The position numbers and the translations under genes are program-made. Of a DNA stretch of 60,304 nt, positions 23,811 to 32,446 are shown in pieces (the first letter of the stretch is position 1; the number at the start of each line of letters is the position of its first letter). Under the pieces are notes generated by a model, which worked only from the letters and a program-made list of their open reading frames with translations, did not search any database and was not told the origin of the DNA. The DNA is from Pseudomonadota bacterium (GTDB lineage Bacteria; Pseudomonadota; Alphaproteobacteria; Acetobacterales; Acetobacteraceae), in contig JAJZGI010000008.1 in assembly GCA_021798575.1 (NCBI GenBank), forward strand, positions 1-60,304. Reading direction: 5' to 3'.

Positions 23811-24422
23811 TCAGGGCAAAAAATCGCGCGGGTTGAAGAATTGGCGGGCGGCGAGTTGGGCCTCGGCGGGCGTCATCACTCTGGATGGGGCCGGGCGCCA
23901 GATGTTTCGGGCGGGTTTTTTTGGGGCTGGCGTGAGGGTGAATGATGGTGCGCGTTTTATGCGCGGTTTTCTGGGCAGTTTGAGGCACGCGGGCGGCTTG
24001 ATGCCGAGCATGTGGCAGAGCGGGCGAATGCTGCGGGCCAGCATCGGGTGGCTCGTGATGAGGGATTGGGTCTCGGGCTCATCCAGCAGGAGGAGCAGAT
24101 GGCTGCGCACCGCACTGATATCGGTGCCTGGGAACATGAAAGCGAGCCAGCCGAAATTGGTGGGCGGGTAGAATTCAGCGGTTTTATCAGCGATTTTTGG
24201 CGGGTTGGTGGGCGGGTTGCGGGATGTGGCGCGCTTTGGGCGGACGGGCAAGGGACCGCGCGCGATGAGAACATGCAGGCGGTCGTGCAGGCGGATCAGG
24301 CGGCGGTAGAGCGACTGGCATAAGGAGACCGGCATTTTGACGCGCGGGGCAAAGAGGGTGACGCTCTGCGCGAGCGTTACCACGATGCGGTTGAGGCGCT
24401 GAGAGATGGTAAGGCTTGACAT
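23811..24422 (-). CDS. Conserved-looking protein of unknown function, basic and Pro-rich
   Basis: A 203-residue protein I cannot name. It looks like real coding sequence: an amphipathic N-terminus (SSLTISQRLNRIVVTLAQSV), the pair SLYRRLIRLHDRLHVLIARGPLP, then a central compact segment (NFGWLAFMFPGTDISAVRSHLLLLL, ... MLARSIRPLCHMLGI), and a very basic Lys/Arg/Pro-rich C-terminal third. There are no membrane helices or signal. I take ATG 24422; the frame extends to 24527 without a convincing start. It converges on the lipase gene and lies at the edge of the low-G+C island, so it may belong to the core or to the insert. Confidence 0.55.
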   Translation of the reverse strand: MSSLTISQRLNRIVVTLAQSVTLFAPRVKMPVSLCQSLYRRLIRLHDRLHVLIARGPLPVRPKRATSRNPPTNPPKIADKTAEFYPPTNFGWLAFMFPGTDISAVRSHLLLLLDEPETQSLITSHPMLARSIRPLCHMLGIKPPACLKLPRKPRIKRAPSFTLTPAPKKPARNIWRPAPSRVMTPAEAQLAARQFFNPRDFLP

Positions 24423-24604
24423 AAAGTTAGTTGTAGTGACATTTTGCGGTGGAGTCAAGGGGGAATTTTTAGGCTTTTTTGGGTTTGTAAACGGTGGATG
24501 GCTTCGCTGCGCTCGCCATGGCGGCACGGGTTGGTCATGGAGAGAGTGACGGGGCGTTTTGGGTGGTTTTTAGTGAAAAAATGGATCGCGATGACCGATG
24601 TTGC

Positions 24605-26080
24605 TTAGTCAGCATGCGATTTGAACAGGATGGCATCTTCCCATAACGGCCGGGTTATCGTCGGATCACAGTCTTCACAGACGATCCACTTGCACAGCTC
24701 CCGCGTTGACTCGATCCCATCCTGAGGTGCCGCGATGGAAGGCGACGCGGCGTATCCCAGCGACGTGAATCGCTGCGCACCGTAGAGCGCCAGCCTGTCG
24801 CGTAATGACTCTTTCAGACTCTCAGGGTAGACACCGACCGTCTGAGTATAGGCATTGACGGCGCCGAATACCTCCTCCAAATCATCGACCGGGACAAGAT
24901 TGGCGATTCGTTTTGCCAGAAGAGGGGCAAAATCGACGGGCTCGGGTAGATGCGAGACGATGATCGCCCCTTCATCATGCCTGCCTCCGATTACATGATA
25001 CCACTCGATATTGAGGCGCGCGGAATCGACCAAAGATCGCAGGTCGCCATCCATGCTCTTCGGGGATGTCGATACGCACCCGGGAAGATTGATCATGGCG
25101 TCGTAGGTGTATTGGCCGAGCCTATCGAGATTGGCCAGGCCTTCATCGTTGCTTCCCGACAACACATAGACCACGCGGGCGTTGACGCATCCCTCCTGGT
25201 TCATGCCGCCGATATCGGTCGCGAGCCGTAGTGCCACGACGCGCATCGCCGCATCGCTCTCGAAGGCCTGTGCGCCGATGATGCTGACGCTGCGTTTGGG
25301 ATCGAGCGAGATCAGCTCCAGCCCCGGCTGGATATATTTCGTTACGTGCTTGACCGAGGCGAAGCCGCCCCAGGCGACAATTTTTTCGATATGGCGGGGT
25401 TGGTAGAGCGCCTGCTCGATCGCCTCGTCACCACCCTTCCAGTAGGCGACCGAGAGATGGCGCGTGAGCGGATGTTCGGGATCCATCTCCACCATAGTGC
25501 GGGCGATCGCCAGCGCGGTGAACGGATCGTTGGACGGACTTTTGATGATGGCATCGCCGCGCGTGATGGCGTTTCGCAGGATCGACAATCCCGCGATTAC
25601 CGGACTGTTGCCCGCGATGATATGAAGCGCGCGGGCGCCGAAGGCGCGGACCGATACGCGGCGGCCATCATTCATCATGGTCGGAACCCAGCCCTCCAGA
25701 TGATTGATGCCGATGGTCTTTTCGGCGATCTCACGAGCGGTCTCCCGGTTGAAAAGATACGGAAGCGATTCATAGGTCGCGCGCAGTACCGGCGGCGTGA
25801 GGGATGAGGTCGCGCACGATACCTCCAACGCTTGCCCGAGATAGTCGTTACGCGCAAGATACAGACGTGATCCGAGGCGATCGACGTAATCGAGAATGTC
25901 ATCGAACTTGAGCCGGTAGAGATCGGCGAGCGCCTTCGGGCTTCCCAGTGGAAGGATGCGCAGATATTTGCCTGGATCCGGCGAGAGGAAGGTCATTCCG
26001 ATTCCGCGACCGCCGAACTGGACCAGATCGTCTTCAATCCATTTGCCGCGGATCACGATGCCGGCTTTGAATTCCTGCAT
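24605..26080 (-). CDS. LuxC-family acyl-CoA/acyl-protein reductase
   Basis: LuxC enzymes reduce an activated acyl group (acyl-CoA or acyl-enzyme) to an aldehyde with NADPH. The 491 residues align in pattern with the family: VRAFGARALHIIAGNSPVIAG, SPSNDPFTALAIARTM, YWKGGDEAIEQAL, and the acyl-accepting cysteine in GGMNQEGCVNARVVYV (about 298, embedded in an aldehyde-dehydrogenase-like fold). AAGGAT precedes the ATG. It lies 21 nt after the LuxE-like gene on the same strand, making a synthetase-reductase pair without luxD or luciferase genes. Third codon positions are visibly less G+C-rich than in the core genes. Substrate unknown. Confidence 0.82.
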   Translation of the reverse strand: MQEFKAGIVIRGKWIEDDLVQFGGRGIGMTFLSPDPGKYLRILPLGSPKALADLYRLKFDDILDYVDRLGSRLYLARNDYLGQALEVSCATSSLTPPVLRATYESLPYLFNRETAREIAEKTIGINHLEGWVPTMMNDGRRVSVRAFGARALHIIAGNSPVIAGLSILRNAITRGDAIIKSPSNDPFTALAIARTMVEMDPEHPLTRHLSVAYWKGGDEAIEQALYQPRHIEKIVAWGGFASVKHVTKYIQPGLELISLDPKRSVSIIGAQAFESDAAMRVVALRLATDIGGMNQEGCVNARVVYVLSGSNDEGLANLDRLGQYTYDAMINLPGCVSTSPKSMDGDLRSLVDSARLNIEWYHVIGGRHDEGAIIVSHLPEPVDFAPLLAKRIANLVPVDDLEEVFGAVNAYTQTVGVYPESLKESLRDRLALYGAQRFTSLGYAASPSIAAPQDGIESTRELCKWIVCEDCDPTITRPLWEDAILFKSHAD

Positions 26081-26101
26081 TTTTATATCCTTATGATCCT
26101 A

Positions 26102-27553
26102 TCACGAAAGTCCGTCGTTGAGGAAATCGAGCGCCTCGGTGTAGGCCTCGGTCGACGCGGCGCAGTTGAGCTTCTCCTCCCCGGAATCGATCCGCTTCAC
26201 GCTGATGCGCTGGATATCGGCAGCAAGATAGGGGCGCATGCGGCCACAGGCGCAGTGCGCATCCCAAATCATCGTCACCTCGTCGCCGGTGACGAAACCG
26301 CCCCAGCGGGTATCCGGCAGGAGGTCGTAGAAGGCGAAGCGCCCGGTGACCGTTCCCCGGCGGGGAAATGGCCGGCCCGTTTCCGGATCGAGCACGAAAG
26401 GAATGATCCAGGGGACAATATGATAATTTCCTTCTTCGCATAGAGGCAAAGCAGCGGTCATCTCCGACATGCCGTAGAGAATGTGCATGCGCTCGACGCC
26501 GAAAAACGCCTGCACGGTCTGTTGCCAATTCTCCGGCAATTTGACGCCCTTGTTGCCGCCGCCGGTAGCAAGGATGGAGTTGGACGCGAAGACGTTCCGT
26601 AGCCCGCGCGCGACGCCCTTCTCGGCGCAGCCATGAAGGAGGTTGGCGGTTGCGAGCATGAACACGCGCTTGTTTGCGAGTTTCACCTGGATATTGCTGA
26701 AAAAATTGTCGATATGCTGCGGCATGGCACGCTGCTGCGCCTCGAACTCCTCGCGCCTGGCCGATAGTTCAGGGCTGACCTCAAGATTTTCGAGATCGCC
26801 CCTGGCCTCCGCGGCGCGGCGCCGTACCGCGAGCAGCGCCATGTCGGCGCTCATGCGCCCCGGATAGGCGGCGTGAAAGCGCGCCTCGCCGCCGGCTATG
26901 ATCTCGACGATGGCATCGTTGACGGCCATATGCGAAAGCCCGCCGCTACGGAAATAGGGGTAGATGCAATCGATATCCGGAGGGGCTTGATGCGCCGCCG
27001 TGTCGCCGAAGCGTTGAAACAGCAGCACCGGAAACTGGCGAACCATCGCCTGATATTCCCGCCTGGCCCATGGCAGAAAAGACATCGTTCCACCGGTGCC
27101 CGAGGTATGCACGACCACCAGCGGTGTCTCCCGCTTGATCGTCAGCATCCAGTCATCGACGCCATTACAATTCGACACGTCAATTCTTGATAGATCGACT
27201 GTCGTGAGTTTGTTGAGCCAGGCGGTCAGCTGCGCAAAACGCTGCTTGTCCAGCAACGACGCGGGATAGGATTTGTAGGTCGCATGGTCGAACAGGAGTG
27301 GCACGACGTCATCGAGCTGTTCAACCGCGTCGATGTTCTGGATGTCTGCGAGCCGGTCCAGCATGGGCAGCGCGCCGCGAAGCTGGCCGAAGCGCCGCTT
27401 GAGCCCGGCGATTTGAAGCTCCCATAGCTGGTCTGGCGAAAGCCCCATCATCCTCGTGAGCGACCCGCCAAAATACGCGCCCGGGTCTGCGAGAAATCGA
27501 TCGACGGCGGCATCGTTTTGCGTTTCGCCGGACCGGGCTGTTCCTGAGGACAT
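26102..27553 (-). CDS. LuxE/PaaK-family acyl-protein synthetase
   Basis: An adenylating enzyme of the LuxE type: it activates a carboxylic acid as acyl-AMP and passes the acyl group to a cysteine for the LuxC reductase. The 483 residues show the phosphate loop VVVHTSGTGGT (148-156), ILYGMSEMTAALPLCEEG (358-375), a TGDEVT strand (422-427) that usually holds the ribose-binding aspartate, and a CACGR segment (434-438). A cysteine at 464, 20 residues from the end, is placed like the acyl-carrying cysteine of luminous-bacterial LuxE; that match is inference. At 483 residues it is longer than classical LuxE (about 370-380). It is the first gene of the leftward arm, divergent from tetR. Confidence 0.8.
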   Translation of the reverse strand: MSSGTARSGETQNDAAVDRFLADPGAYFGGSLTRMMGLSPDQLWELQIAGLKRRFGQLRGALPMLDRLADIQNIDAVEQLDDVVPLLFDHATYKSYPASLLDKQRFAQLTAWLNKLTTVDLSRIDVSNCNGVDDWMLTIKRETPLVVVHTSGTGGTMSFLPWARREYQAMVRQFPVLLFQRFGDTAAHQAPPDIDCIYPYFRSGGLSHMAVNDAIVEIIAGGEARFHAAYPGRMSADMALLAVRRRAAEARGDLENLEVSPELSARREEFEAQQRAMPQHIDNFFSNIQVKLANKRVFMLATANLLHGCAEKGVARGLRNVFASNSILATGGGNKGVKLPENWQQTVQAFFGVERMHILYGMSEMTAALPLCEEGNYHIVPWIIPFVLDPETGRPFPRRGTVTGRFAFYDLLPDTRWGGFVTGDEVTMIWDAHCACGRMRPYLAADIQRISVKRIDSGEEKLNCAASTEAYTEALDFLNDGLS

Positions 27554-27681
27554 TTTTTTCCTGATTATCGTATTGGTGGTGACGTTTTGTGGCTTGAGTG
27601 CGGAGCGAGGTAAAGGTAATTAATTGAAGTCGATTAAATAAAAGCGGATGACAAGATCCGGGAATGACTGCATATTCGGGC

Positions 27682-27704
27682 AATTCAACCAGATAGGGTG
27701 AATT
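27682..27704. promoter_or_regulatory. Candidate TetR operator between the divergent arms
   Basis: An inverted repeat AATTCAACC - AGATA - GGGTGAATT (8 of 9 arm positions complementary, 5-nt centre) sits in the 178-nt gap between the luxE-like start and the TetR start, 28 nt before the latter. Position and symmetry fit an autoregulatory operator that also controls the leftward genes. I could not place -35/-10 boxes with confidence. Confidence 0.5.
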
Positions 27705-27731
27705 AATAATAAATGGTCCTGGAGGTTTTTG

Positions 27732-28469
27732 TTGACTGTATTGGAGAAGACGAAACGCCATAGGGCGCGGCCTCGTCTGGATAAGAACAGGGATGTTGTG
27801 AATAAACTGCTCGATGTGACGGAGGATCTGCTCCGTACGCAGAGTCATCATTACATTACCGAGCGGAAAATTGCAGCACTCGCCGATGTCAGCGTTCCTT
27901 TGATCCATTATTATTTCGGCGGGAAGGACGGACTCTTGTTCGCGGTCATTGTGCGCTATACGGATGAGGTTCTGGTCAAGCTCAAGGCGCTCGATCGGAT
28001 CGACCCGATGGCAGTCTCGCCAACCAGAACAATTTTCAAAATATTCATCGACGCTTTCTACACAAAACCGTGGATTATACGGATTGCTCTATCGGAGTTT
28101 GCCCAACCTGAATCCGCAATAAAACGATTCTTCATGCGGAAATATGGGCCGCAGGGGCAGACGCTGGCTTTGCTCCGGCGCGCGTTTATACGGCTCATTG
28201 ATGCGGGCGTCTATGACCGGCGGATTAATCCTTCTCATGCCGCAATGAGTATGATGCTGATTATCCTGGCCCCTTTCATGTTTGGCCCGATGCTGTGGAG
28301 TAATGGAGGGGGCCTTGAAGGGCTGATGGGCGACGACTGGATCGACTATGTCGGTGATCTGTTTGCGCGTCGGTATCCTGATGGGAAGAAATCCGTCATG
28401 CCCATCGCCTCCTTGCCCCGCGGTGCGGCCAAATCGTCTCTATCCAATATTAAACGGGAATATAAATAG
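27732..28469 (+). CDS. TetR-family transcriptional regulator
   Basis: A 245-residue regulator. The N-terminal helix-turn-helix is at about 35-70 (ITERKIAALADVSVPLIHYYFGGKDGLLFAVI as a span, with the usual YYFGGKDGL), and the larger C-terminal domain is the ligand-binding and dimer part. The GGAGG site at 27721-27725 points to TTG 27732 as start (6-nt spacing) rather than TTG 27729. It ends 2 nt before the alcohol dehydrogenase gene, so it is the first gene of the rightward operon, divergent from the luxE/luxC-like pair, and probably represses both arms through the palindrome at 27682. The inducer is unknown; a pathway acid or alcohol is a reasonable guess. Confidence 0.85.
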   Translation: MTVLEKTKRHRARPRLDKNRDVVNKLLDVTEDLLRTQSHHYITERKIAALADVSVPLIHYYFGGKDGLLFAVIVRYTDEVLVKLKALDRIDPMAVSPTRTIFKIFIDAFYTKPWIIRIALSEFAQPESAIKRFFMRKYGPQGQTLALLRRAFIRLIDAGVYDRRINPSHAAMSMMLIILAPFMFGPMLWSNGGGLEGLMGDDWIDYVGDLFARRYPDGKKSVMPIASLPRGAAKSSLSNIKREYK

Positions 28470-28471
28470 CC

Positions 28472-29518
28472 ATGTTGACTACGCTAGCCTGGGGGGCGCT
28501 CGACGCCGCCTCGCCGATCGCGCCGCTCGATATTCTCCGCCGCGAGCCTGGCCCGAACGATGTTTTGTTCGACGTGCTCTACTGTGGCATCTGCCACACC
28601 GATATCCACATGTCGCGAGGGCATTTTGCGGGGGCGATCTTCCCGATGGTGCCGGGACACGAGATCGTCGGCCGGGTCGTGAGGGTCGGGGAGGCCGTGA
28701 CCAGACATAGGGTCGGCGATGTTGTCGGCGTCGGCTGTCTGGTCGATTCCTGTCGTCATTGTGATGAGTGCGAGGCGGGCCATGAGCATTTCTGCGACGC
28801 CATGGTCGGCACCTACAACGCGCTCGAGCGGGATGGCAGGACACCGACCTATGGCGGCTATTCGGCACGGATGACGGTCGACGAAAACTATGTGCTGAGG
28901 ATTTCGCCGAAGCTTTCGCCTGCCGCCGCCGCGCCCTTGTTGTGCGCCGGCATCACGACCTATTCGCCGTTGCGGCACTGGAATGTGACGAAGGGCAGCA
29001 GGGTCGGCGTGGTCGGTCTGGGCGGTCTGGGGCATATGGCGGTCAAGTTCGCCGCGGCGATGGGCGCGGAGGTGACCGTGCTCAGCACCTCCGACGGCAA
29101 GAAGGGCGATGCGGCGAGGCTGGGCGCCAGGGATTTCGCGGTCACCCAGGACCCCGAGACCTTCAACCGTCTGGCGGGTCGGTTCGACCTGATCCTGAAC
29201 ACCGTGTCGGCGAGTGTCGATTACGATGCCTATATCGGCCTGCTCCGGCGCGATGGCACGCTGGTGCTGCTGGGCGTTCCCGATGGGCCGGTCTCGTTCA
29301 ATGCTTTTGGTCTGCTGATGCGGCGCAAAAGCGTCGCCGCGTCGCTGATCGGCGGCATCAGGGAGACCCAGGAGATGCTGGATTTTTGCGCCGAGCACGA
29401 CATCGTCTCCGACATCGAGGTGATCGTAATCGATCAGGTCAACGAGGCCTATGGGCGCATCCTCAGGAGCGACGTGCGCTACCGGTTCGTGATCGATCTC
29501 GCGAGGATGAAACCATGA
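28472..29518 (+). CDS. Zinc-dependent alcohol dehydrogenase, cinnamyl-alcohol-dehydrogenase type
   Basis: A 348-residue medium-chain dehydrogenase that interconverts aldehydes and primary alcohols with NADP(H). Catalytic zinc ligands are C38 (CGICHTD), H63/E64 (PGHEIVG) and C158; structural zinc cysteines are at 94, 97, 100 and 108. The nucleotide loop is VGLGGLGHMA (181-190), followed by a serine/threonine-rich strand end (LSTSDGKK) that favours NADP(H). It resembles YahK/CAD aldehyde reductases. In this operon it could reduce the aldehyde made by the LuxC-like enzyme or run in the oxidative direction. It overlaps the next gene by 4 nt. Confidence 0.9.
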   Translation: MLTTLAWGALDAASPIAPLDILRREPGPNDVLFDVLYCGICHTDIHMSRGHFAGAIFPMVPGHEIVGRVVRVGEAVTRHRVGDVVGVGCLVDSCRHCDECEAGHEHFCDAMVGTYNALERDGRTPTYGGYSARMTVDENYVLRISPKLSPAAAAPLLCAGITTYSPLRHWNVTKGSRVGVVGLGGLGHMAVKFAAAMGAEVTVLSTSDGKKGDAARLGARDFAVTQDPETFNRLAGRFDLILNTVSASVDYDAYIGLLRRDGTLVLLGVPDGPVSFNAFGLLMRRKSVAASLIGGIRETQEMLDFCAEHDIVSDIEVIVIDQVNEAYGRILRSDVRYRFVIDLARMKP

Positions 29519-30537
29519 CATCAACAGAGCCGCGCAAGCCACGCATCGTCATCTATGGGACCGGTCAGTTTGGCCAATATATCGCGCGGTTCGCCACCCG
29601 GAAGGGTTGGCCGATCGTCGCCGCCTATAACCGCGCGGGGCCGAAGGTCGGCCGGGACCTCGGGCGGCTGGCGGGGCTGGATCGCGATATCGGCGTCATC
29701 GTCCAGGATTGCGACACCGCGTGCTATGATGGGTTGGATGCCGATATCGGCGTGGTGACGCTCAGCAACAGCCTGACCGAGAATTTTCCTGGCTACCGGC
29801 GGCTATTGAACGCGGGCCTCAACGTGATCTGTCATGGTACCGCCGCCTACTACCCTTATGGGTGCGACCCGGCTCTCGCCGCTGAGATCGATGCGCTGGC
29901 AAAGGCGAATAACGTTACGTTTTCGGGATCTGGCATCTGGGACATGTCGCGGATCTGGGCGGGTATTCTGCTGGCCGGCCCCTGCACCGAAATCCGCTCG
30001 CTCTATCATAGCAGCATCACCGACACCCAGCGTATCGGCAAGGTGCAGATGATGTTCACCGGCGTCGGGCTGACGACGGAGCAGTTCCGGCAGAGGTTCG
30101 GTAGCGTGAATACCGCCCTGAACACCTACAAGACCATCCCCGAGCATGTGCTGGCCGCGCTTGGCTATACGATCAGCGCCGATCGGGTTCGTGTCGAGCC
30201 CGTGGTATTCGATGCGCCGTTCTATTGTCGCCTGCTCGAGCGCGAGATTCCGGCGGGCGATTGCGTCGGCACGCGGATCGTCGCCGAGATTGAGACGAAG
30301 GAAGGCCCCACGGCAAAGGCCGTGATCGAGTTACGCCTGTTCCATGATGGCGAGATCGAGCACATGTTCTGGTCGGTCGATGGCGAGCCTGCTACCCGCG
30401 TGCGCACAGAGCGGGATGATTCCGCCCACGCCACCGCGGCCTGCCTGTTCAACCGTATCCCCGACGTGATCGCCGCGCCGCCCGGCATCGTGTTGCTCTC
30501 GCAAATGGGGCCCATGAAACATACGGCACTCGCGTAA
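29515..30537 (+). CDS. DapB-like NAD(P)H-dependent dehydrogenase (2,4-diaminopentanoate dehydrogenase-like)
   Basis: A 340-residue Rossmann protein with IVIYGTGQFGQYIA at 11-24 and a body resembling the dihydrodipicolinate-reductase-like family that includes 2,4-diaminopentanoate dehydrogenase (NAD(P)H-dependent amine dehydrogenases). GLNVICHGTAAYYPYG and FSGSGIWDMSRIW match the pattern where the family binds substrate. It is not a biosynthetic DapB, which is shorter (about 240-270 residues) and has a different HHxxK motif. The ATG at 29515 overlaps the dehydrogenase stop by 4 nt. The substrate could be an amine, imine or aldehyde; nothing in the sequence decides this. Confidence 0.7.
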   Translation: MTSTEPRKPRIVIYGTGQFGQYIARFATRKGWPIVAAYNRAGPKVGRDLGRLAGLDRDIGVIVQDCDTACYDGLDADIGVVTLSNSLTENFPGYRRLLNAGLNVICHGTAAYYPYGCDPALAAEIDALAKANNVTFSGSGIWDMSRIWAGILLAGPCTEIRSLYHSSITDTQRIGKVQMMFTGVGLTTEQFRQRFGSVNTALNTYKTIPEHVLAALGYTISADRVRVEPVVFDAPFYCRLLEREIPAGDCVGTRIVAEIETKEGPTAKAVIELRLFHDGEIEHMFWSVDGEPATRVRTERDDSAHATAACLFNRIPDVIAAPPGIVLLSQMGPMKHTALA

Positions 30538-30573
30538 CAGGCCATTGCGCGGCGCAGGAAGAGGATCAAGAAA

Positions 30574-31734
30574 ATGCAACGATTTGATGTCCGGGAATTA
30601 CTGGGAACCGCGACGGCGCGCACCGGCCTGTCCGATTTCGGCCCCGAGGATTTCCTCGAAGGCTTGACGGTCCTGGTCAACGGTCTCAACGACGAAGCGG
30701 AGATCCGCGCTGATCGATGGGAATTTGTCCATGAACGATTGCAAAGACTGCTGATCAATCGGCTGTGGTTTGCCAAGGACCTGGCCGAACATCCGGAAAT
30801 TCTCGATGAGGACGAGGGGTCGCCGGTTATCATCGCCTCTCTGCCACGTACGGGGAGCACCAAGCTCCATCGGATGCTGGCCGCGACCGGGGATTTCCAG
30901 ACCGTCCCGTTATGGAAGGCGCATATGTTCGCGCGCATTCCCGGCCTCGACGATGGCGGCAAGGCGCGTCGGATCGCGGAAACAGAAGCATATGAGAGAT
31001 GGATCTATGAGACGTCACCGGCGATCCTGACCGGGCACCCGCTCTTCACGCATGAAGCCGAAGAGGATCAATGGCTCGCAGAGAGCGCTTTTCGCCATCC
31101 TCTGATTTTTGGGCTGTTCGATTCGCTGCAATATGCCCAGTGGCTGTTCGCGGCGGATATGCGCCCGACCTTTGTGTTTTTTCTGTCGCAGATCCGATAT
31201 CTACAATGGCAGGCCGGGCTCTCCAAAGCGAAGCCATGGCTCCTCAAGACGCCTAACCACATGGGCAACGAGGCGGCCCTGACCGAATGTTTCAAATCGC
31301 CAAAATTCATCGTCACGCATCGCGATCCGGTCAGATGCATCCCGTCGATTACCAGCACCTCGATGGCGATGCGGCGCCTCTATTCGGATCGGGACAGCAG
31401 CCTGGCACTCGGCGCCGGTGCGCTACAATTATTCGCAAATGCCGCCAATACCCATATGGGATGGCGGGATCAGAACCCGGATGTGCCTGTTCTCGATCTG
31501 AGTTTCGACGAGATCAACCGGGACGGTATTGCCGTTGCGCGCAAGGTCTATGAGTTCAGCGGCATGTTTTTCTCCCCGGAGGCGCAAGCGGCGACCCGCG
31601 CATGGGAGGCCCGCAATCCTCGGGAGAAGCACGGGACGCACCACTACTCCGCCGCCGCGATTGGCACCACGGACCAGGGAATTCGCGATCTCTATGCTCC
31701 GTATATCGAGCGATACGCCCGGTATATTTCCTAG
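30574..31734 (+). CDS. PAPS-dependent sulfotransferase family protein
   Basis: A 386-residue protein of the sulfotransferase fold. The 5'-phosphosulfate loop is ASLPRTGSTKLHRML (88-102), and the 3'-phosphate site is FIVTHRDPVRCIPSI (245-259), with R250 and S258 where PAPS enzymes bind the 3'-phosphate. It would transfer sulfate from PAPS to a hydroxyl or amine. An AGGAAGAGGA stretch lies before the ATG, 36 nt after the DapB-like gene, so it is the last gene of the rightward operon; a long hairpin begins at its stop codon. Typical partners for such enzymes in actinobacteria and sphingomonads are lipid or sterol modification genes, but the acceptor here is unknown. Confidence 0.82.
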   Translation: MQRFDVRELLGTATARTGLSDFGPEDFLEGLTVLVNGLNDEAEIRADRWEFVHERLQRLLINRLWFAKDLAEHPEILDEDEGSPVIIASLPRTGSTKLHRMLAATGDFQTVPLWKAHMFARIPGLDDGGKARRIAETEAYERWIYETSPAILTGHPLFTHEAEEDQWLAESAFRHPLIFGLFDSLQYAQWLFAADMRPTFVFFLSQIRYLQWQAGLSKAKPWLLKTPNHMGNEAALTECFKSPKFIVTHRDPVRCIPSITSTSMAMRRLYSDRDSSLALGAGALQLFANAANTHMGWRDQNPDVPVLDLSFDEINRDGIAVARKVYEFSGMFFSPEAQAATRAWEARNPREKHGTHHYSAAAIGTTDQGIRDLYAPYIERYARYIS

Positions 31735-31765
31735 AGCATAATTGCTTACCATCAATAATGCTCTA
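31732..31765. repeat. Palindromic element, unit 1 (hairpin at the sulfotransferase stop)
   Basis: Arms TAGAGCATAATTG and CAATAATGCTCTA (12 of 13 pairs) around an 8-nt loop, starting within the sulfotransferase stop codon. It may act as a transcription terminator for the rightward operon. Its TAGAGCA...TGCTCTA ends match the two other hairpins listed at 31779 and 37096, so it looks like one unit of a repeat family. Confidence 0.6.
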
Positions 31766-31778
31766 CGCTTTGTTTGAC

Positions 31779-31834
31779 GAGCAAGTTGGCTGCTTTGGTC
31801 GAAGCAGATGATTCGACCAAAAGCTACCTTGCTC
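31779..31834. repeat. Palindromic element, unit 2
   Basis: Left arm 31779-31803 starts GAGCAAG and ends TTTGGTCGAA; the right arm 31812-31834 starts TTCGACCAAA and ends CTTGCTC, followed by TA. The inner 10 bp are perfect, the outer GAGCAAG/CTTGCTC are perfect, and a few unpaired bases lie between. Same architecture as the hairpin at 37096. Confidence 0.65.
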
Positions 31835-31865
31835 TAAATCGGATTTATGCGCCGGTAGTCCGAGC

Positions 31866-32192
31866 CTACTCGAACAATGTCGCGGCTTTTGCCAGGACCT
31901 CATCCATGATGGGTGTGGGGAGGCTTTCAACCTTCCGCCCATTGCGGGACTTCAGATCGAGAACCCGAGGCTGATCGCAGCGCACGACGCCGGTTGTTTT
32001 GGTCCCGGCAAGAGGCACGGCGAAGCCCAGGCGGCGGGCAAAGTCACCGCCATTCGTGATCGGCAGAATCACCGGCAGGCCGGTCACCTGGTTGAATTCA
32101 TCCGGCGAGACGATGACAACCGGGCGATGCCCCCGTTGTTCCCGGCCCTGCGTCGGCTCAGGACCGACCATGTAAACATCGCCACGCTTCAT
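31866..32192 (-). CDS. mazF: MazF-type toxin (PemK/MazF endoribonuclease)
   Basis: A 108-residue toxin of the MazF/PemK fold, expected to cut single-stranded RNA at short sites and stop growth when the antitoxin is lost. The N-terminus MKRGDVYMVGPEPTQGREQRGHRPVVIVS shows the family pattern (given as span 1-29), with the basic residue R in the GHRPVVIVS strand and the later LPITNGG threonine that make up the catalytic pair in characterised members. The ATG at 32192 overlaps the antitoxin stop by 4 nt. It lies at the right edge of the low-G+C island. Confidence 0.85.
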   Translation of the reverse strand: MKRGDVYMVGPEPTQGREQRGHRPVVIVSPDEFNQVTGLPVILPITNGGDFARRLGFAVPLAGTKTTGVVRCDQPRVLDLKSRNGRKVESLPTPIMDEVLAKAATLFE

Positions 32193-32446
32193 ATCAGCTC
32201 GGCACCCGCAGCGGGGGCGTCCACCCATTCCCGTTCCTCGGGAGGCTGGGGCTGCGAATAATCCGATGCGGCCAACAGCTCGGCCATGGTGTAGCGGGGC
32301 CGTGCCTGGGGTTCGACAACGAGACGCCCGTTATCTGCGGCCAGGCCGACCTTGGTCCCTGCGGTCATGTGCAAAACATCGAGCAACGCCGGGGGCACGG
32401 CCAGCATGATCGAGCCGCCGACCTTGCGCAAATTCGTGGTGTGCAT
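32189..32446 (-). CDS. mazE: MazE-type AbrB-fold antitoxin
   Basis: An 85-residue antitoxin. The N-terminal half is an AbrB/MazE DNA-binding fold (LRKVGGSIMLAVPPALLDVL, then GTKVGLAADNGRLVVEP), and the acidic, flexible C-terminal half (YSQPQPPEEREWVDAP) is the part expected to wrap MazF. AGGAAG precedes the ATG at 32446 with 5-nt spacing; a GTG two codons upstream is less likely. MazE-MazF complexes usually repress their own promoter; the A+T-rich stretch just upstream (32455-32480) could hold it. Confidence 0.85.
   Translation of the reverse strand: MHTTNLRKVGGSIMLAVPPALLDVLHMTAGTKVGLAADNGRLVVEPQARPRYTMAELLAASDYSQPQPPEEREWVDAPAAGAELI

Follow-up and report, generated by a model that had tools for sequence, protein, structure and literature searches.

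Positions 24605-31734 of contig JAJZGI010000008.1 (assembly GCA_021798575.1, Acetobacteraceae) hold six genes, and they raise the question of whether these genes serve a single pathway and, if so, which one. The whole stretch of 60,304 nucleotides that was analysed is referred to here as the window. The genes code for a LuxC-like reductase, a LuxE-like protein, a TetR-family regulator, an alcohol dehydrogenase (ADH), a DapB-like dehydrogenase and a sulfotransferase of the type that uses 3'-phosphoadenosine 5'-phosphosulfate (PAPS). Most of what is known about LuxC and LuxE comes from light production by bacteria. Judged from their sequences and from the recurrence of the set elsewhere, the five enzyme genes look like one real and so far undescribed pathway. 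The reading that we favour, with a probability of roughly 55%, is that of a horizontally acquired, probably TetR-regulated island for one pathway that would convert an acid to an aldehyde and then to an alcohol, with PAPS-dependent sulfation. A preliminary description made from the DNA letters had placed the six genes in two divergent arms with short spacings, and all of this was confirmed from the coordinates of the open reading frames (ORFs):

24605-26080, minus strand: LuxC-like acyl-thioester reductase, 491 amino acids (PF05893, 125.5 bits)
26102-27553, minus strand: LuxE-like putative acyl-adenylating protein, 483 amino acids (PaaK/LuxE fold without the ligase C-terminal domain)
27554-27728, no strand: divergent intergenic region, presumed from its position only to be a shared promoter/operator
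27729-28469, plus strand: TetR-family regulator with a TTG start (PF00440 TetR_N, 30.1 bits, E 4.2e-07)
28472-29518, plus strand: zinc alcohol dehydrogenase/aldehyde reductase of the YahK/CAD type (ADH_N 89.4 bits, ADH_zinc_N 80.1 bits)
29515-30537, plus strand: DapB-fold NAD(P) dehydrogenase of the native-amine-dehydrogenase/DAP_DH_C superfamily (PF19328 DAP_DH_C, 34.3 bits)
30574-31734, plus strand: PAPS-type sulfotransferase with PRTGST and HRDP (PF13469 Sulfotransfer_3, 92.4 bits, E 6.1e-26)

The LuxE-like and LuxC genes are 21 nt apart, the tetR and ADH genes are 2 nt apart, the ADH and DapB-like genes overlap by 4 nt, 36 nt precede the sulfotransferase gene, and a gap of about 175 nt separates the two arms. 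The DapB-like gene sits inside a longer open frame in the ORF list. As for the families first assigned, Pfam recovered those of LuxC, TetR, the ADH, the DapB-like protein and the sulfotransferase, whereas the LuxE assignment stands in a looser sense, the fold being LuxE-like and the Pfam LuxE model remaining unmatched.

Recurrence of the gene set in other genomes

A profile scan of a genome-contig collection with a LuxC alignment returned 179 relatives, and the figures given here for 80 loci refer to the best 80 of these 179. Each of the 80 loci was represented by a stretch of about 6.6-21 kb, in some cases ended by a contig end, in which neighbour genes were sought by tblastn; a sulfotransferase was counted at E <= 1e-5. 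The preliminary description had made its single-pathway reading depend on whether other genomes keep the genes together, and all five enzyme genes were found together in one locus and four of the five in another. The first (L034), from a bacterium only distantly related to that of the window, is a 6.6-kb Nevskia contig from a metagenome-assembled genome (MAG), on which the five genes lie on one strand in an order unlike that of the window. Identities to the window proteins are 75% for LuxC, 68% for the ADH, 59% for the LuxE-like protein, 58% for the DapB-like protein and 46% for the sulfotransferase; the contig end truncates the sulfotransferase gene at its start, and the product of this gene matches Sulfotransfer_3 at 73.9 bits. 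The second, also from a MAG (L109, 11482-16983), has in a row genes for a LuxE-like protein (39%), LuxC (56%), a P450, a DapB-like protein (55%) and a sulfotransferase (32%), followed by a short-chain dehydrogenase/reductase (SDR) and an old yellow enzyme (OYE). A betaproteobacterial MAG contig (L033), which starts inside the LuxE-like gene, carries the LuxE-like protein (58%), LuxC (77%) and the ADH (71%). A tree of 92 LuxC rows made by a quick method, with ORFs of less than 440 amino acids excluded and 3 of 7 outgroup rows used, unites the LuxC proteins of the window, L033 and L034 in a single clade (SH-aLRT 100) and places that of L109 elsewhere. The tree sister of L109 (L112) gave no match above 120 bits to the P450, DapB-like protein or sulfotransferase of L109 on the 1.5 kb after its LuxC gene. 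Since all five of these genes occur together in the rearranged locus L034 and four of them in L109, the single-pathway reading is supported.

Other counts weigh against it. Among the best 80 of 179 relatives, the full five-gene set comprises two cases only, the window and L034, and the four-gene set one, L109, where the P450 gene occupies the place of the ADH gene. A sulfotransferase was found in 3 of the 80 loci, which is no more than chance could give in a sulfotransferase-rich genome, and two of the 80 have a close DapB-like gene. Close relatives of the DapB-like gene in Mesorhizobium, Pantoea (plasmids) and one other genome (G642) lie without the rest of the set within about 9-10 kb. Because sulfotransferases are common, with 10 family matches in the 2.37 Mb of the window's own genome, a lone sulfotransferase neighbour means little. 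The genes might then be chance neighbours, namely, a LuxE-like/LuxC/ADH module and an unrelated TetR-DapB-like-sulfotransferase group that were joined after horizontal transfer, as would fit the 78 of 80 loci with no close DapB-like gene, the 77 of 80 with no sulfotransferase and the DapB-like gene found alone elsewhere. We consider such an accident very improbable, because LuxE-like, LuxC, DapB-like and sulfotransferase genes recur as a group in two loci that differ from the window in gene order and because a close DapB-like gene is rare: of 397 other genomes in a phylum sample, one has it at E <= 1e-40, there without the other genes over about 9 kb on either side. In the family sample, 2 of 298 genomes besides the window's own genome gave a match to the DapB-like protein, both weak (E 1.2e-5 or worse).

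The LuxE-like and LuxC proteins

Under the single-pathway reading, the LuxE-like/LuxC pair would carry out the first steps. The pair was found across Pseudomonadota, Myxococcota and Actinomycetota. In 79 of the 80 loci the LuxE-like gene precedes luxC on the same strand by at most 300 nt, the exception (L079) having it about 5.6 kb downstream, and an ADH gene of the same kind adjoins luxC in 37 of the 80. The two genes are also adjacent in all six plasmid loci (in reversed order in two) and in all eight loci of kin genomes; these 14 loci were themselves found through the LuxE-like protein, the plasmid set being 6 of 17 records and a weak place in one genome (G168) being excluded from the kin loci. 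No relative came from an earlier scan of genome contigs in which the LuxE-like protein was the sole query. The adjacency across the 80, the plasmid and the kin loci argues that the LuxE-like and LuxC proteins act as one functional unit. A sulfotransferase gene was found in 3 of the 14 further loci (L016, L021 and L023), and phmmer adds a fourth (L024). A general link between LuxE/LuxC and sulfation, taken as a rule, is unsupported at 3 of 80 loci. Separately, a Deltaproteobacteria MAG (L051, 7148-11300) has a sulfotransferase ORF directly 3' of the LuxE-like and LuxC genes and gave no match to the DapB-like protein or the ADH of the window.

The LuxC-like protein passed the PF05893 cut-off of 21 bits (E 3.1e-36) and matched the LuxC structure in the Protein Data Bank (PDB), 7xc6_A, at E 1.2e-31. 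C298, N294 and Q295 are invariant in 11 of 11 LuxC sequences, and Cys298 (codon 25189-25187), as judged from the alignment, is likely the acyl-carrying cysteine of LuxC.

The label of the LuxE-like protein required closer weighing since some results speak against it. The Pfam LuxE model, PF04443, had no match in the whole genome at E <= 0.001, nor did hmmscan match it to the LuxE-like protein itself at E <= 1. The only Pfam family that appeared was AMP-binding, PF00501, at 18.7 bits, which is under its cut-off of 29.9. The local profile alignment with LuxE (LuxE 194-331) ends before the tail, and the best PDB sequence match of the LuxE-like profile is ClxA (9s3l, E 1.2e-4), which the abstract of its paper calls an amide ligase. 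On the other side, the fold and the profile comparison back the label despite the Pfam failure: the predicted structure has the PaaK/LuxE fold, that is, the adenylating fold of LuxE. Alignments with PaaK-type proteins stop at residue 449-457 of the 483 in the model, with 26-34 residues left over, and at residue 308-364 in PaaK-type chains of 396-477 residues. The C-terminal domain of PaaK, about 90-120 residues past the core, is lacking in the LuxE-like protein, which ends near where that domain starts. Its tail has a cysteine, Cys464 (codon 26164-26162), that is invariant in 26 of 26 LuxE-like sequences and is paired with LuxE Cys360 by a forced global hhalign alignment. The tail cysteine of LuxE is an acyl carrier. 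The reading of this protein is unaffected by the early end of the local alignment, since it draws on the fold, on the absence of the C-terminal domain and on the conservation of the cysteine. The acid activation and reduction that had been ascribed to the pair are supported, as a prediction, by the invariant cysteines and the PaaK/LuxE fold.

By analogy with LuxE/LuxC and GriC/GriD, we interpret the two proteins together as a two-component carboxylic acid reductase. Compared with the fatty acid reductase of bioluminescence, the window has a LuxC homologue and a partner with a LuxE-type fold and a cysteine-bearing tail, but no luciferase or LuxD is among the six island genes, and the LuxE-like protein, which is encoded directly upstream of luxC, has 483 amino acids against 370 for the LuxE that was compared and fails PF04443. 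GriD is presumably related to LuxC. In PMC10179220, GriC (adenylation) and GriD (reduction) of grixazone biosynthesis are described as two proteins that take a free acid to an aldehyde, and the likeness drawn here is to that description: the window likewise has separate AMP-binding and reductase proteins with adjacent genes. ClxA is a ligase solved, going by the title of 9s45, with 3-amino-4-hydroxybenzoate, the same acid as that of GriC/GriD; ClxA, the best PDB match of the LuxE-like profile, is by its abstract an amide ligase and not an acid reductase. Searches of open-licence papers for the gene set and for LuxC-like/LuxE-like proteins outside light production gave none that, judged by titles and the starts of abstracts, describes this set. 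PMC4772473 concerns a homologue of LuxE in Riemerella, which is non-luminous, and speaks of a LuxE domain in RfbN; on the pair itself, PMC11481866 and PMC11429834 offered no more than a lux reporter and a reference to GriC/GriD. The locus and its relatives suggest that an acid-reducing pair of the LuxE/LuxC kind is widely used in other settings and is here in compact form with a sulfotransferase; so small a gene set offers a handle for a new acid reductase substrate.

The company that the pair keeps elsewhere hints at terpenoid, steroid, aromatic or polyketide acids and is too varied to choose among them. It also raises the possibility that the island is catabolic or detoxifying, i.e., that the LuxE-like protein, LuxC and the ADH help to degrade an acid of terpenoid, steroid or aromatic type and that the sulfotransferase conjugates a pre-existing hydroxyl rather than that of the newly made alcohol. 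The pair occurs in Pseudomonas, Cupriavidus, Paraburkholderia, Mycobacterium and sphingomonads, with P450 genes near it in Mycobacterium avium. Its annotated plasmid neighbours include P450, AMP-binding, enoyl-CoA hydratase or acyl-CoA dehydrogenase, and GMC-type or FAD oxidoreductase genes, and similar neighbours were recognised, by eye only, in the Pseudomonas and Cupriavidus loci. In L109, the P450, SDR and OYE genes surround those for the DapB-like protein and the sulfotransferase. On plasmid p1 of Caballeronia sp. Sq4a (L012, 9440-16895), genes for a sulfatase and a formylglycine-generating enzyme lie immediately upstream of the LuxE-like, LuxC and ADH genes; this sulfatase is the sulfate-removing counterpart beside the same module. 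All of this would suit a catabolic role, yet no beta-oxidation, ring-cleavage or oxygenase gene is among the six island genes, and acid reduction at the cost of ATP is atypical of catabolism. A catabolic or detoxifying island is a possibility that we regard as doubtful, and the route from acid to sulfated alcohol remains the reading that we favour.

Three further observations were made on these neighbourhoods. On the Pseudonocardia plasmid pLS1-1 (L013, 7692-18079), the LuxE-like/LuxC pair overlaps at its start with a gene for a type I polyketide synthase, and a hypothetical gene and a P450 gene come after the pair, an arrangement that possibly serves the reductive handling of a polyketide acid. 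A Paraburkholderia sprentiae plasmid (L016, 1-16613) has genes for CysN, CysD, CysQ, a sulfotransferase, an ADH and an ecdysteroid-kinase-like protein less than 10 kb from a distant LuxC/LuxE-like pair that is accompanied by a second LuxE-like copy; an OYE of L016 is 50% identical to that of L109. Phosphotransferase genes recur near luxC: at 4863-6212 in L033 (APH Pfam match), at 15884-16963 in L011 (annotated) and at 9657-10796 in L016 (ecdysteroid 22-kinase family).

The proposed route from aldehyde to sulfated alcohol, and the amine question

The ADH matched YahK of E. coli (PDB 1uuf) over its full length at E 2.1e-126, YahK being the nearest solved relative and plant CAD-type enzymes being close as well. 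It scored 300.5 bits with the NCBIfam Ahr equivalog model, below the cut-off of 470. The conversion of aldehyde to alcohol proposed for it earlier agrees with YahK as its nearest relative. The sulfotransferase passed its Pfam cut-off of 27 bits and matched PDB 2z6v (E 5.8e-24) and 2zq5 (E 1.4e-22) along nearly all of its sequence. Both entries, presumably mycobacterial Stf proteins, are uncharacterized in the PDB. The PRTGST and HRDP of the window protein align with PRTGTT and HRDP of 2z6v, and such motifs are the usual PAPS contacts. A supply of PAPS is expected because the genome has a gene for adenosine 5'-phosphosulfate (APS) kinase (E 2.1e-68).

An amine or a sulfate-ester step had been proposed in addition. 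The sulfate step is upheld by the sulfotransferase and the APS kinase, but the amine step is weakened by the DapB-like protein. The nearest solved relatives of this protein are 6iau (E 8.6e-42, query residues 7-336) and 6iaq (E 1.4e-39), which PMC11164908 names CfusAmDH and MsmeAmDH. It thus belongs, over nearly its whole length, to the family of native amine dehydrogenases, and it could be imagined to aminate the aldehyde made by LuxC, or to deaminate an amine, so that the product would be amine-bearing and sulfated. According to the relevant passages of PMC9325545, the catalytic Glu of these enzymes is E108 in CfusAmDH and E102 in AmDH4, and the E102A variant of AmDH4 is nearly inactive. E108 corresponds to residue 112 of 6iau, an offset of 4 that was counted on the alignment and that fits F140, F144 and W145 as given in those passages. 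At this position the window protein has Thr110 (codon 29839-29841), and the residue is replaced as well in L034 (Ala), L109 (Val), Mesorhizobium (Ser) and Pantoea (Ser). One residue further on, the solved enzymes again have Glu, which only the Mesorhizobium and Pantoea proteins retain; L034 and L109 carry Gln there and the window protein carries Ala, so that a shift of the alignment by one residue would still leave the window protein without Glu. Such a loss is common to most of group G5 in PMC11164908, whose members are described there as mostly Glu-less and as inactive on the test substrates except for those that have the Glu; for the enzymes treated in the same passage, genomic context is reported not to have pointed to a definite function. 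The structure model of the DapB-like protein is poor (pLDDT 58.3). A Glu-less enzyme might still aminate, but with the ammonia-activating Glu replaced by Thr here and by other residues in the relatives, we have downgraded the amine product and consider this branch improbable.

The sulfated-alcohol branch of the single-pathway reading is accordingly our best guess. The families, the active-site residues kept or lost, the LuxE-like fold, the co-occurrence in rearranged loci and the presence of the APS kinase gene are directly supported by sequence or model, and from the families and the layout we infer chemistry, cofactors, the order and direction of the steps, and TetR control. The LuxE-like protein would adenylate a carboxylic acid with ATP to an acyl-AMP and then take the acyl group on its tail Cys464; the acyl group would move to Cys298 of LuxC, from which reduction with NADPH would release the aldehyde, and the YahK/CAD-type ADH would reduce this to the alcohol. 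The Glu-less DapB-like protein might act on the same skeleton in another NAD(P)-dependent reaction, which is unlikely to be an amination, and the sulfotransferase would transfer sulfate from PAPS to a hydroxyl, most simply that of the new alcohol. That this is a transferable pathway in which two-protein acid reduction leads to a sulfated alcohol, and in which a Glu-less DapB-like protein has a reaction new to its family, is a tentative proposal. If true, it gives a metabolic context for the Glu-less relatives of native amine dehydrogenases.

Apparent acquisition, presumed regulation and flanks

The lower G+C content ascribed to the island holds: it is 59.1% at 24605-31734 against 64.5% in the left and 65.0% in the right flank. 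When 266 overlapping segments of 7,130 bases were compared, 4 had a value as low or lower, and the lowest of all began at 24401. The left block, at about 16.9-23.8 kb, has UDG, SLT, PgpA and lipase genes and, by eye, a panB-like gene; it is retained in one relative (G004), and in another (G029) the lipase alone of that block was matched. In the right flank, permease and glutamine-synthetase-like genes are retained in all five relatives whose permease region was examined, and part of an Fe-ADH gene in three of the five. No island gene was among the best matches at E <= 1e-15 in seven flank stretches of relatives. Since flank genes are retained in these stretches of relatives with no island gene among the best matches, there is an insertion-like break in synteny at the island, which was apparently acquired horizontally; an uninterrupted empty site was not seen, the left and right flanks of the relatives being on different contigs.

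From the divergent layout, both arms of the island are probably regulated by TetR. A shared operator/promoter at 27554-27728 found no support from promoter-like sites or repeats: over 24200-32400 there were 6 promoter-like sites against 3.5 +/- 2.4 in shuffled sequences, which is not above expectation, and the inverted repeats, taken without a shuffle control, were imperfect, had arms at least 220 nt apart and gave no clear operator. Near the right edge of the island, between the sulfotransferase and permease genes, lies a gene for a PemK/MazF-like toxin (31866-32228, minus strand; PF02452, 92.8 bits).

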